From an uncultured Erysipelotrichaceae bacterium (lineage in GTDB: Bacteria > Bacillota_I > Bacilli_A > RFN20 > CAG-826), in contig CACWSI010000005.1 in NCBI GenBank assembly GCA_902763555.1, forward strand, positions 1 to 50,892: a stretch of 50,892 nucleotides of DNA, written 5' to 3'. The notes beneath the pieces were generated by a model, which saw only the letters and a list, made by a program, of their open reading frames with translations, did no database searches and was not told the origin of the DNA. How positions within the stretch are numbered: the stretch's first letter is position 1; every line of letters begins with the position of its first letter. Shown here in pieces: positions 29,748 to 34,101 of this stretch. The position numbers and the translations under genes were made by a program.

Positions 29748-30141
29748 GGGGTCGTATTGGTTTCGACCAGGAATGGTTAGGCTCTAACTGCAGTCGAGTG
29801 ATGACGTTATCATCAAAACAAAAATAACTGACAACAGTTATATGAGAGCTCCAAGAGCTCAACAACTCTGCTTAGCTTAATTTAGCTCCCGACATAGGGT
29901 CCGACGCATGGCGCCGGGCAGAGCATCCCCCAAGGTTTTATCCTTTCACGCTTGGGTAGGATGTCATACCAAAAGGATAGGTGTCTAGAGTCGATAAGTT
30001 ACTAGCGCCGAAATTCCGTTTATCTCGCACGTCCTAGTGAGTCGATATACGAAAGCGTGTTAAATCTTAATATCGTCTAAACTGTAGACGTTATTGAAGA
30101 GCCTTCTTGGGACAGGAGTTCAATTCTCCTCGGCTCCACCA
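29748..30141 (+). ncRNA. ssrA: Transfer-messenger RNA (tmRNA)
   Basis: The RNA has 394 bases. The 5' GGGGTCG pairs with CGGCTCC before the encoded 3' CCA (30139-30141). The tRNA-like D/T-arm sequences 'TTCGACCAGGAATGG' and 'GACAGGAGTTCAATTCTCCT' are present. The tag reading frame is the only open one after AAATAACT: GAC at 29830 to TAA at 29878-29880, giving the 16-residue tag DNSYMRAPRAQQLCLA. tmRNA with SmpB rescues stalled ribosomes and marks the product for proteolysis. The tag starts with Asp and ends Cys-Leu-Ala rather than the common Leu-Ala-Ala. The promoter and terminator flank it closely. Confidence 0.93.
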
Positions 30142-30252: not shown

Positions 30253-30516
30253 ATGGCTACGATAAACATTAGGGTAGATGATGGATTAAAGAAACAATCA
30301 GAAATGATCTTCGATGCGTTAGGGGTAAGCATGACGGCTGCCATGACTATATTTTTAAAAGCGGTTGTTAGAACCAAAAGCATACCTTTTTCCTTAGAAA
30401 TACCCAATGATGAAACACTTAAAGCATTTAAAGAAGTTGATGATATTTCTTCTGGGAAGGCAAAGGCTAAGAAGTATTCTAGCGCTGCTGAGCTCAAGAA
30501 AGATTTAAAGAAGTAA
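30253..30516 (+). CDS. RelB/DinJ-family antitoxin, orphan
   Basis: An 87-residue protein with the RelB/DinJ ribbon-helix-helix start 'MATINIRVDDGLKKQSEMIFDALGVSMTAAMTIFLKAVV' and a charged C-terminal tail that would bind a RelE/YafQ-type toxin. RHH antitoxins dimerise, bind DNA and neutralise the ribonuclease toxin. No RelE-like ORF follows; a terminator comes seven bases after the stop. It is therefore an orphan, or the toxin gene has been lost. The ribosome site is AGGAAA. Confidence 0.88.
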   Translation: MATINIRVDDGLKKQSEMIFDALGVSMTAAMTIFLKAVVRTKSIPFSLEIPNDETLKAFKEVDDISSGKAKAKKYSSAAELKKDLKK

Positions 30517-30891: not shown

Positions 30892-30919
30892 TTGCGCATT
30901 TCTTTGATAGTGCTAAACT
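30892..30919 (+). promoter_or_regulatory. Promoter of the ABC-transporter leader
   Basis: TTGCGC (30892-30897), 16-bp spacer, then an extended -10 TG-C-TAAACT (30911-30919). This predicts a start near 30926 and a ~200-nt leader before the ATG at 31128. Confidence 0.45.
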
Positions 30920-30923
30920 TATA

Positions 30924-31107
30924 GCCAAGTAAAATTATGAAAAGAGCATTTTATTACTTTTATAGCTACTATTATCCAAGAGGTAATCAATAATCTTGGC
31001 CTTTTAGCTATTAAGGTGTTATTGATTACAAGGACTTAATCAATGGCACTGGTAATAAAGAAAATGAATTATTAATTGGTGCCAAACAGGACACCAATTT
31101 TTTATTT
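30924..31107 (+). promoter_or_regulatory. Structured leader with terminator/antiterminator (riboswitch or divergent T-box candidate)
   Basis: CCAAGA (30976-30981) pairs with TCTTGG (30994-30999). Its 12-base loop contains GTAATCAATAA, the exact complement of TTATTGATTAC (31019-31029), so it can form a pseudoknot. ATTGATTA (31021-31028) can instead pair with TAATCAAT (31037-31044). That hairpin abuts an antiterminator, GGCACTGG/TAATAA (31045-31058) with TTATTA/ATTGGTGCC (31069-31083). The antiterminator excludes the terminator AATTGGTG (31074-31081)/CACCAATT (31092-31099) followed by TTTTATTT. TGGCAC (31044-31049) resembles the tRNA-binding TGGNACC of T-boxes. No known aptamer consensus was recognised. 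Confidence 0.6.
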
Positions 31108-31127
31108 CATTAAGGAGGACAAATAAA

Positions 31128-32108
31128 ATGAAAAAAGAAAAACTATTAACGCTCTTACCACTTATGCTTACACCATTTATGATGACAGGTTGTAACAATG
31201 ACAGCACTGATATTGGTATTCTCCAATTCGGTGAATTCGCAGCCTTAGACGATGCTAGAGAAGGCTTTATTCAAGGCCTTAAAGATGCAGGCTTCGGCGA
31301 TTTAAAATTTGATATTCAAAACGCTAAAGCAACTGCTGCCACAAACTCTACATTAGCCAAAGGTATGGCAAGTAAAAAGCACAAACTCAATTTAGCAATT
31401 GCTACTCCATGTGCGACAGCCTTAAAAGCCGCTCAAGAAAATATCGGTTCTACAACTCCATTATTATTCACTGCTGTGACAGATCCAGTTGGTGCTGGCT
31501 TATTAAAAGACAATAATGCTCCAGAAGGTTTCGTTACTGGTACAAGTGACCTTCAACCAGAAGAAGCATTAGGCAATCAAATTAAATTAACAAAGAAAAT
31601 GATTCCAGATGCCAAAAAGTTAGGTATCTTCTACTGCGCTAATGAACAAAATTCACGTGTGCAAGCTCAAATGGCTTCAGAAGTTGCTAAAGCTGAAGGC
31701 TTAGAAGTTGTTGAAAAGACATGTGTTGATCAATTCACCATCAAAACAAACATCGCTGAATTAGCCGCGGATGTGGATGCGATTTGGATTCCAACTGATA
31801 ACACAGTCGCTAGTAATATGGCAAAAGTCAAAGACGGCTTAGGACAAAATAAAACATTAGTCATCGTTGGTGAAGAAGGTATGCTTGATGGTGGTCAAGT
31901 GACTGTTTCTATCTCCTACTATGATTTAGGTGTTAAGACCGCTGAATTAGCAGCAAAGATCTTAAAAGGTACCGCTGTTAAAGATATCCCAGTCTTCTTC
32001 AACACTGCAGATACATGTTCTTACACATTCAGTAAAAAGAATTTAGAAGATGCTGGTTTCAAAACTGAAGACTTACCATCAGAATTCCCTTGGAAAGAAG
32101 CTAAATAA
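31128..32108 (+). CDS. ABC transporter substrate-binding lipoprotein (TrpX/PF04392 type)
   Basis: 326 residues. The lipobox is 'MMTGC' (Cys22). The body has the two-lobed PF04392 pattern: 'IGILQFGEFAALDDAREGFIQGL', 'NLAIATPCATALKAAQ', 'LFTAVTDPVGAGL', 'GTSDLQP', 'LGIFYCANEQNS', 'DAIWIPTDNTVASN' and 'YYDLGVKTAELAAKIL'. Characterised relatives include the Streptococcus TrpX system for tryptophan/tyrosine uptake. It is the first gene of a three-gene operon with a permease and an ATPase, read from AAGGAGG (31112-31118) just after a leader terminator. Tryptophan is the best guess at the ligand but is not shown. Confidence 0.9.
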   Translation: MKKEKLLTLLPLMLTPFMMTGCNNDSTDIGILQFGEFAALDDAREGFIQGLKDAGFGDLKFDIQNAKATAATNSTLAKGMASKKHKLNLAIATPCATALKAAQENIGSTTPLLFTAVTDPVGAGLLKDNNAPEGFVTGTSDLQPEEALGNQIKLTKKMIPDAKKLGIFYCANEQNSRVQAQMASEVAKAEGLEVVEKTCVDQFTIKTNIAELAADVDAIWIPTDNTVASNMAKVKDGLGQNKTLVIVGEEGMLDGGQVTVSISYYDLGVKTAELAAKILKGTAVKDIPVFFNTADTCSYTFSKKNLEDAGFKTEDLPSEFPWKEAK

Positions 32109-32110
32109 AC

Positions 32111-33085
32111 ATGGATATTACTGAGCTAATACGTTTGACATTAAGCATGGGTCTTCCATGCTGTCTATTGGCCCTAGGTGTATTCTTAACATTCAGGATA
32201 CTCGATTTCGCTGATATGACCGCTGAAGGAAGTTTGTTAATCGGTGGGGCAGCTTGTGCCTTAATGATTACTAAAAACGTTCCTCCTCTTATTGCGACAT
32301 TTGTCGGTATGCTTGCCGGTGGTGTGTGCGGTTTTATCACTGGATTTCTAAATCGAGTGCTTAAAATACCTAAGCTATTAAGTGGTATTATCACCATGAC
32401 CGCTTCTGGTTCTATTGCCTTATTATTATTTGGCCTAGCCAATGGTAGAATCTTTGCTTCAGAGATTAACGGCATTGATAACTCTAAAACAATCTTTGGC
32501 TTCTTAAATCCAAAGATATTCCATGGTTGGCAACAAGTAATGGTAGTCGCGGTTATCGTCGCCATAGTCTTAGCGGTTGCCTATTTCTTCTTTGGTACTG
32601 AATATGGTATGGCCATACGTGCCACTGGTATCAATGAGAAAATGGCCAAATCACAAGGCATTAATACTACAGTTACCACAATTATATGTGTTTCCATTAG
32701 TAACGCTTTAATCGGCTTAGCAGGCGCTCTTATTGCCCAAATCGATAGTGGCATGAACGCACAAGGTGCGACTGGTTATCTTGTTGTCGGCTTAGCAAGT
32801 ATTCTTATCGGTGAAACATTATTTGGTAAAAGATCGTTTAAAAACGCTCTTATATCCATTAGTTTAGGTTCAATACTATACTTCGCTATCATCATGCTTG
32901 CTACCCAAGTATTCAAGATGCCAACAGACTTAACTAAATTACTATATGCTTTCTTAATCGCTTTAGCGCTTTGCCTTCCAATGATTAAGCAAGCAATCTT
33001 AAAACTTTGGGCACGAATTTCACCGCCTATAAAGAGATTCTTTAAAAAGTTATTTGTTAGAAAGAAAAAGAAGGAGGCTGAATAA
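32111..33085 (+). CDS. ABC transporter permease (TrpY type)
   Basis: 324 residues with about eight to nine membrane helices and a lysine-rich C-terminus (RKKKKEAE). It resembles the branched-chain/ribose permease fold (BPD_transp_2) that accompanies PF04392 binding proteins. Recognisable segments are 'RILDFADMTAEGSLLIGGA', 'GMAIRATGINEKMAKSQGIN' (coupling loop to the ATPase) and 'VGLASILIGETLFG'. It begins two bases after the binding-protein stop and lacks a strong ribosome site, suggesting coupled translation. It forms the transmembrane channel of the uptake system. Confidence 0.9.
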   Translation: MDITELIRLTLSMGLPCCLLALGVFLTFRILDFADMTAEGSLLIGGAACALMITKNVPPLIATFVGMLAGGVCGFITGFLNRVLKIPKLLSGIITMTASGSIALLLFGLANGRIFASEINGIDNSKTIFGFLNPKIFHGWQQVMVVAVIVAIVLAVAYFFFGTEYGMAIRATGINEKMAKSQGINTTVTTIICVSISNALIGLAGALIAQIDSGMNAQGATGYLVVGLASILIGETLFGKRSFKNALISISLGSILYFAIIMLATQVFKMPTDLTKLLYAFLIALALCLPMIKQAILKLWARISPPIKRFFKKLFVRKKKKEAE

Positions 33086-33087
33086 CT

Positions 33088-34101
33088 ATGTTAGAACTAA
33101 AAAACGTCACTAAAACATTCAACCTCACTGGTAACAAAGAAGACTTAAGAGTGGCCTTGGACCACGTTAATTTACAAATCGAAAGTGGTGAATTTGTCAC
33201 CATTATCGGTAGCAATGGTTCTGGTAAAAGTACCACGATGAATATCCTCACCGGTGTTCTTAAACCAGATTTAGGGCAAGTCTTATTAAATAATGTTGAT
33301 ATCACTAAGATGGATGAACATGAACGTGCAGCCTATTTCGGTCACGTTTTCCAAGATCCAATGATGGGCACATGCGGCGAAATGTCCGTCATTGAAAACT
33401 TAGAAATCGCCTATCGTCGTGGTAGAAAGCATTCTCCATTCCTATGGGGCTTTAGAAAATCTCATAAAAAAGAATTCATTCGTGAATTAAAAAGATTTGA
33501 TTTAGGTTTAGAAGATAGACTTAATCAAAAAGTTGGTGTTATGAGTGGTGGTCAAAGACAAGCTTTAACTTTGTTAATGGCCACAATGCGTAATAAACCA
33601 ACACATAAGACAGTTAAGAAAGACTACATCACATTCTGTGAAAAAGACCATGAAGTCGCTAGAAAAGAATTTGAAAGTGTCTATAAACCAGCGCTCGCGG
33701 AATATAAAACTAATAAGTCCTCTATTAGAAAAGATAAATCCTTATCCTTTAAAGAAAAACGTGAAGCACTAGCAAAAGCCTATGATGAATTTGATAAAAA
33801 GATTCGTCAATTTGACTTAACAAAACAAATTCTTTTATTAGATGAACATACCGCTGCCCTTGATCCAAAGACAGCGAAAAAGGTTTTGGAATTAACAGAT
33901 AAAATCGTTAAAGAAAACCAAATGACAACATTAATGATTACCCACAACATGAAAGATGCTCTGACATATGGTAATAGATTAATTATGTTCCACACTGGTC
34001 ATATTATTTTTGACGTCAGAGGCGAAGAAAAAGCAAAACTCACCGTTGAAGATTTATTAAAAAAATTCGATGAAGCGGATCAAAAAGCGATAGAAATGTA
34101 A
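33088..34101 (+). CDS. ABC transporter ATPase with insertion between signature and Walker B
   Basis: 337 residues. Walker A is 'GSNGSGKST' (41-49), the Q-loop 'VFQDP' is ~87-91, the signature 'MSGGQRQAL' is 152-160, Walker B 'ILLLDEHTAALDP' is 248-260, and the switch His lies in 'LMITHN'. Normally ~15 residues separate signature and Walker B. Here ~85-90 residues do, because of a ~75-residue highly charged, helical insertion (~169-245, e.g. 'KSLSFKEKREALAKAYDEFD'). The reading frame is continuous and all catalytic motifs are kept, so the protein is probably active and the insertion is a real added element. It energises the operon's importer. The ribosome site is AAGGAGG. Confidence 0.9.
   Translation: MLELKNVTKTFNLTGNKEDLRVALDHVNLQIESGEFVTIIGSNGSGKSTTMNILTGVLKPDLGQVLLNNVDITKMDEHERAAYFGHVFQDPMMGTCGEMSVIENLEIAYRRGRKHSPFLWGFRKSHKKEFIRELKRFDLGLEDRLNQKVGVMSGGQRQALTLLMATMRNKPTHKTVKKDYITFCEKDHEVARKEFESVYKPALAEYKTNKSSIRKDKSLSFKEKREALAKAYDEFDKKIRQFDLTKQILLLDEHTAALDPKTAKKVLELTDKIVKENQMTTLMITHNMKDALTYGNRLIMFHTGHIIFDVRGEEKAKLTVEDLLKKFDEADQKAIEM

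Follow-up and report, generated by a model that had tools for sequence, protein, structure and literature searches.

A tyrosine codon-rich leader with alternative RNA helices, probably a ribosome-mediated attenuator, precedes a predicted tyrosine importer operon in Bacilli

Leader-peptide attenuators are established for trp, his and phe. In the E. coli his attenuator, the RNA segments pair as A:B, C:D and E:F in the off state, and as B:C and D:E in the on state. In Bacillota, the usual view is that T-boxes control tyrosine genes. The principle of leader-peptide his attenuation is set out in PMC9413887, where such his attenuators are also predicted computationally in Erysipelotrichales, the B. 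cereus group and the C. difficile group; further ones have been predicted in Bacillota at hisZ/hisS* (PMC2965389). The aroR leader peptide of C. glutamicum, located before aroF and the only one with Tyr codons in the literature searched, contains Phe-Tyr-Phe and answers to limitation of phenylalanine, not of tyrosine (PMC11802643). No tyrosine-responsive leader-peptide attenuator was found in the open-access literature that we searched. Here we describe a leader that is very probably a ribosome-mediated transcription attenuator, sensing tyrosine through the charging of Tyr-tRNA and controlling a tyrosine ABC importer; as far as checked, this would extend a known kind of device to an amino acid and a target, an uptake operon, that are both new to it.

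The leader lies in a window of 50,892 nucleotides, by which we mean the whole stretch of DNA analysed, from an uncultured Erysipelotrichaceae bacterium; the leader elements and the operon genes described below are on its forward strand. Three genes follow the leader: a substrate-binding lipoprotein (31128–32108; PF04392, Pfam 1.4e-57), an ABC permease (32111–33085; Pfam PF02653) and an ABC ATPase (33088–34101; Pfam PF00005). The best solved relative of the binding protein is 6hni, which is CD0873 of C. difficile (E 8e-44); CD0873 binds tyrosine, and its Glu-263 touches the Tyr hydroxyl (PMC6816091). The window protein has Glu and Tyr at CD0873 positions 263 and 279, as a CD0873-like tyrosine binder should, unlike the Ala and Gln of the Trp binder. 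The operon is thus predicted to code for a tyrosine ABC importer, and, as judged by the pocket residues, the genes downstream would import the amino acid whose codons fill the leader. Annotation of the binding protein as TrpX was rejected, its score of 221.9 bits against NCBIfam TrpX (NF041285) being below the curated cut-off of 390. The original prediction had seen a regulatory leader with antiterminator and terminator before a Trp-type PF04392 ABC operon; the leader is borne out, while the Trp-type assignment gives way to the CD0873-like pocket and the sub-threshold TrpX score. Of 57 family genomes, 2 have a TyrA (prephenate dehydrogenase, PF02153) match over the cut-off; the window's genome, which is 85% complete, is not one of them. 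This pattern is consistent with dependence on imported tyrosine. A tmRNA gene, followed by an ORF for a RelB/DinJ-type antitoxin, occupies window positions 29748–30141 and 30253–30516.

Between promoter and operon lies a short ORF rich in tyrosine codons, MKRAFYYFYSYYYPRGNQ*, which runs from the ATG at 30937 to the TAA at 30991–30993 and has 18 codons, 6 of them for Tyr. Its putative regulatory cluster, Y-Y-F-Y-S-Y-Y-Y (30952–30975), is conserved in type-I leaders: six of the eight codons are Tyr in 16–21 of 23 such leaders, and the remainder are mostly Phe. In the window, no strong or clear Shine-Dalgarno sequence is seen ahead of the leader ATG, and ribosomes would initiate after a very short 5' UTR (~11 nt); some relatives in family f23 carry AAGGAG-like sites before the leader ORF. 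Around the start codon there is also an inverted repeat (30927–30939/30947–30959, 77% complementary), which could tune leader translation.

The downstream binding protein was used as query against 196 genomes of the family, a relative was found in 82, and the loci were oriented and their upstream DNA read. Loci counted for presence of the ORF are the 86 unselected family loci with enough upstream sequence, and the ORF was sought within 260 nt upstream.

A Tyr-rich short ORF (at least 4 Tyr in 12 residues) is present upstream of the binding-protein gene in 66 of these 86 loci. In a set of 46 nonredundant leaders, each picked because it has both a Tyr ORF and a terminator, the best stretch of 12 residues holds 5.3 Tyr on average, and the level of at least 4 in 12 is reached by 0.6% of dinucleotide shuffles. 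The leader peptides consist of 26% Tyr and 13% Phe, compared to 2.0% and 2.7% in the binding proteins; eleven amino acids were counted, and enrichment is confined to Tyr and, to a lesser degree, Phe, with none for Trp, His, Ile, Val and the others. In a class-wide search, families f2, f5, f12, f16 and f23 also showed a Tyr-rich ORF at a similar distance (in f23, in 15 of the 17 loci read), with LACSQFYYYYYYPRGYQE and MKIRSFAQSYYYYYYPRKIV as examples from outside the home family. Judging from these counts, chance cannot account for a Tyr-rich ORF that most relatives have in the same position.

The leader RNA contains a series of helices that compete for the same segments. The protector hairpin P1 (30963–31010) is made of two helices, 30963–30968/31005–31010 and 30976–30981/30994–30999 (CCAAGA/TCTTGG); a second CCAAG copy is located at 30925. 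Segment 1 (GTAATCAATAA, 30983–30993), which is formed by the last codons and the stop codon of the leader ORF, pairs 11/11 with TTATTGATTAC at 31019–31029, an exact inverted repeat. Segment 2 (GGTG-TTATTGATTAC, 31015–31029) can have segment 1 (ON) or segment 3 (OFF) as its partner; segment 3 (31037–31058) can pair with segment 2 (OFF) or with segment 4 in the antiterminator (ON); and segment 4 (31069–31083) serves both hairpins, closing the antiterminator as its 3' arm and opening the terminator as its 5' arm. The antiterminator (31045–31058/31069–31083) has 14 pairs and one bulge. The core of 2:3, ATTGATTA with TAATCAAT at 31037–31044, extends to GTGTTATTGATTA (31016–31028) with TAATCAATGGCAC (31037–31049), and since this extended form includes GGCAC (31045–31049), 2:3 and 3:4 are mutually exclusive, which makes the arrangement a switch. 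Segments 2 and 4 each contain GGTG, and both compete for the CACC of segments 3 and 5. All pairings listed in the original prediction are present at the coordinates that it gave, and the structure is more than chance, with a folding energy z of −3.9 for the window leader RNA (0 of 200 shuffles as stable) and covariation of the ON helices in relatives; the second hairpin does adjoin the antiterminator as it had said, but rather than merely abutting it, overlaps it in the extended form.

The intrinsic terminator before the first gene, AATTGGTGCC-AAACA-GGACACCAATT (31074–31107; arms 31074–31083/31089–31099), has a hairpin of −10.8 kcal/mol with a T-run after it, and a terminator was found in 65 leaders. 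A probable promoter at 30892–30919 was read from the sequence as TTGCGC, a 16 nt spacing and the extended −10 TGCTAAACT, which would place the transcription start at ~30926; a GTGnTAnAnT motif is aligned at the promoter position in most of 27 leaders. Simple scans of the window, one for sigma-70 promoters and one for terminators, flagged neither this promoter nor the terminator at 31074–31107.

Alignment A1 holds 23 diverged type-I leaders, with slid helices and 500 shuffles as controls. P1 and 1:2 are treated as alternatives in the models used.

In this alignment, the ON helices (1:2 and 3:4) have 92.1% of cells paired, compared to 24–62% for slid helices, and their covariation score of 0.236 is reached by 0 of 500 shuffles. 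Compensatory GC to AU exchanges are found at 31045:31083 (AU in 10 leaders, GC in 9) and at 31046:31082 (GC in 17, AU in 4). The OFF helices (P1, 2:3 and terminator) are paired in 90.4% of cells versus 25–46% when slid, with weaker covariation that is not clearly above shuffles (58 of 500 reach the observed value). Taken one by one, the 1:2 pairing has 92.5% of cells paired, the terminator helix 96.4%, and the two helices of P1 89% and 96%, P1 having no two-sided changes. In f23 leaders the same positions read GTTATTAC/GTAATAAC in an identical alternating order, and in one of them (L176) the words that join segment 1 to the 3' portion of segment 2 are ATGTCAT:ATGACAT. Outside the home family, an exact alternating word of at least 6 nt occurs in 10 of 19 leaders (shuffle mean 4.0), while in the home family such exact words are of 4–5 nt, the same as in shuffles. 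We regard the preservation of helix order while the letters change as the strongest sign that the pairings matter. In one leader (L005, genome G105), ~46 nt holding segment 3 are missing and an antiterminator is impossible; this deletion would be either a natural loss of inducibility or an assembly error. A covariance model of the element, which reaches mainly type-I leaders, gives one copy per genome where it matches, always before the binding-protein gene; a regulon of several such elements was rejected, as the next best match in the window's genome has E = 2.

For the folding calculations, the decision point in the window was taken as RNA ending at 31088, where the antiterminator is complete and the terminator is not, and the 5' boundary was moved like a ribosome, assumed to protect some 12–15 nt ahead of the A site.

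With RNA exposed from 30966–30981, the antiterminator probability is 0.99–1.00, and it is 0.98 from 30984; it drops to 0.16, 0.08 and 0.05 with RNA exposed from 30988, 30992 and 30996, over which range the probability of 2:3 is 0.96–0.99. Given the 12–15 nt protection, the high set corresponds to an A site in the Tyr cluster and the low set to an A site at the stop codon. When the exposed part starts inside the linker, the antiterminator is at 0.25–0.50 in the window, being back at 0.50 for boundary 31000. Left uncovered by a ribosome, P1 folds in silico: with nothing masked and RNA to 31088, P1 is at 0.92 and 2:3 at 0.86, and the antiterminator, beside a short form of 2:3, is at 0.88 at 31088, at 0.45 at 31094 and at 0 once the terminator is complete. 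A state without a ribosome is thus predicted to be mostly, not strictly, OFF. Across the 46 leaders, mean antiterminator occupancy is 0.707 when the boundary lies in the Tyr region and drops to 0.587 when it lies at the stop (p 1.8e-11); in 30 leaders it drops by more than 0.02, in none is it higher, and in 16 it changes by no more than 0.02. The overall effect is modest. Shuffled linkers give a mean difference of 0.019 (range −0.03 to 0.057). As the terminator always wins at full equilibrium, the switch must be kinetic; the energies, which come from equilibrium foldings of truncated RNAs, make a switch possible and do not imply that it occurs. By sequence and folding, then, the leader appears to have a mutually exclusive antiterminator whose formation is decided by the position of the ribosome.

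The Tyr-rich leader ORF and its conservation, the alternative helices, the terminator and the tyrosine-type binding protein are all read directly from the DNA, and from these parts we propose the following circuit. RNA polymerase would transcribe the leader while a ribosome translates the leader ORF. If charged Tyr-tRNA is present, the ribosome should reach the stop codon at 30991–30993 and cover segment 1; 2:3 would then pair, leaving segment 4 free for the 4:5 terminator, and transcription would end at ~31105 (OFF). If charged Tyr-tRNA is scarce, the ribosome would stall in the Tyr cluster (30952–30975) and block P1, and segment 1 would stay free, allowing 1:2 to form, then the 3:4 antiterminator, and the importer to be transcribed (ON). 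In the no-ribosome state, P1 would hold segment 1 in its loop, giving a mostly OFF default. The arrangement is the one described above for the his attenuator of E. coli. The Phe codons in the cluster suggest that phenylalanine supply may contribute as well.

How far this last contribution goes is the subject of the one alternative that deserves real weight, which is a variant of the tyrosine attenuator and not exclusive of it: general sensing of aromatic residues, Tyr and Phe, before a Tyr/Phe importer. Phe is the second enriched residue, Tyr and Phe swap at most cluster positions, and importer relatives in family f20 have T-boxes with Phe as well as Tyr specifiers; we nonetheless consider it possible but the lesser prospect, since Tyr is twice as frequent, the level of at least 4 in 12 is reached by Tyr in 45 of 46 leaders and by Phe in 11, and the Glu in the pocket, which touches the Tyr hydroxyl, is retained. 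Taken together, the enriched Phe codons and the Tyr or Phe specifiers in f20 suggest that Phe may be co-sensed or co-transported. It is also conceivable that stalling is caused by the nascent Tyr-rich peptide and not by scarcity of charged tRNA, with free tyrosine or an inhibitor as the signal, as in arrest of the TnaC or Erm type. Many leaders do have a long aromatic run followed by Pro-Arg, and PMC4191407 describes a B. subtilis ABC transporter under antibiotic-answering ribosome-mediated attenuation. We believe such arrest to be unlikely, as length, order and flanks of the peptides vary freely (YYYYYYFPRGCHV, FYFYYYYFSRN, SYFSYYYYYYLGIVF) while the Tyr content is kept, Pro-Arg is accounted for by the CCAAGA arm of P1, and the target is the importer of that same amino acid.

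Readings in which the ORF plays no part fare worse. A small-molecule riboswitch or protein-bound leader, with the ORF there by chance, has in its favor P1, a compact and conserved hairpin; yet the Tyr-rich ORF recurs too regularly for chance, helix words turn over between families, unlike a ligand pocket, and no covariance model of the Rfam riboswitch classes matches, all of which makes this very improbable. Least credible of all is a divergent T-box read by tRNA-Trp, as the original prediction had proposed, beside a new element, from the likeness of TGGCAC to part of the T-box motif (TGGNACC), and although a Trp T-box does occur with TrpX relatives in Streptococcus (PMC9382623). The leader matched none of the Rfam families, and the search gave no T-box and no riboswitch even at E<=10, whereas the T-box model found three T-boxes elsewhere in the window's genome, and others before paralogues; stem I with its specifier loop and the AGGGUGGNACCGCG motif are not seen; TGGCAC is the 5' arm of the antiterminator, where GC pairs change to AU with compensation; and the ORF, which had gone unnoticed, would be left unexplained. 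What survives of the T-box idea is the sensing of amino-acid supply.

The tyrosine attenuator also follows the pocket residues. All 69 family binding proteins with a leader have Glu or Asp at the Glu-263 position; family binding proteins with another residue there have no Tyr leader, as is the case for A, S and K binding proteins elsewhere in the class, and twelve family binding proteins with Glu have no leader. Glu-type importers without an upstream Tyr leader or T-box are found at L074, L078, L081–L083, L087, L089 and L090; several of these loci share a promoter-like stretch, TATATAC..TAGAATTT, and, close to −60, the hairpin CTTTCACC..GGTGAA. In four loci (L151–L154; genomes G177, G167, G126 and G108), the C-terminal half of the binding protein (query 164–299) precedes the N-terminal half (16–152) in one open frame, which looks like a circular permutation of this PF04392 protein.

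Seven paralogous operons of the family that have no Tyr leader carry T-boxes upstream, six of them with a UGG (Trp) specifier when read by eye. In the window's genome, one T-box has the specifier UAC, also read by eye, and stands before a TyrRS-like ORF; another reads GUC and has a ValRS-like ORF behind it; the remaining one precedes an AlaRS-like ORF, these three names being our own recognition from sequence. Family f20, with the same type of importer, has T-boxes or T-box motifs with specifiers that by eye read UAC (L197) or UUC (L186, L199, L209), which suggests that the sensor was replaced between families. On balance, we lean towards regarding the leader as the first attenuator of classical type to respond to tyrosine. 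It would represent a class-wide leader-peptide switch that governs the uptake of tyrosine in Bacilli with small genomes and preserves its circuit while exchanging its helix words, and it would be used beside the Tyr T-box of tyrS, one tRNA being read in two ways. The recurrence of a predicted tyrosine leader-peptide attenuator across several Bacilli families, beside T-boxes on Trp importers and tyrS, makes it possible to ask, as in a natural experiment, why one charge sensor is exchanged for another in evolution; it also suggests substrates for PF04392 importers currently annotated as TrpX-like, and presents a design that persists while nearly all its words change.

Among described systems, hisL of E. 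coli and Salmonella is like the window leader in design, with its run of cognate codons, its three off-hairpins versus two on-hairpins and its protector hairpin over the codons; the window leader differs in having Tyr codons, an uptake operon and a host in Bacillota. The His attenuators predicted in Bacillota are devices of this kind from the phylum of the window leader, but with His codons and before biosynthesis or synthetase genes. aroR shares a leader peptide with Tyr codons, and differs in being Phe-responsive. The trpXYZ operon of Streptococcus suis (PMC9382623) is a homologous kind of operon with the same logic of tRNA charge, although there the tRNA binds the RNA directly, in a T-box, and the amino acid is Trp. 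On the protein side, C. difficile CD0873 is the closest solved binding protein, and both its pocket Glu-263 and its Tyr-279 are kept in the protein encoded behind this leader.
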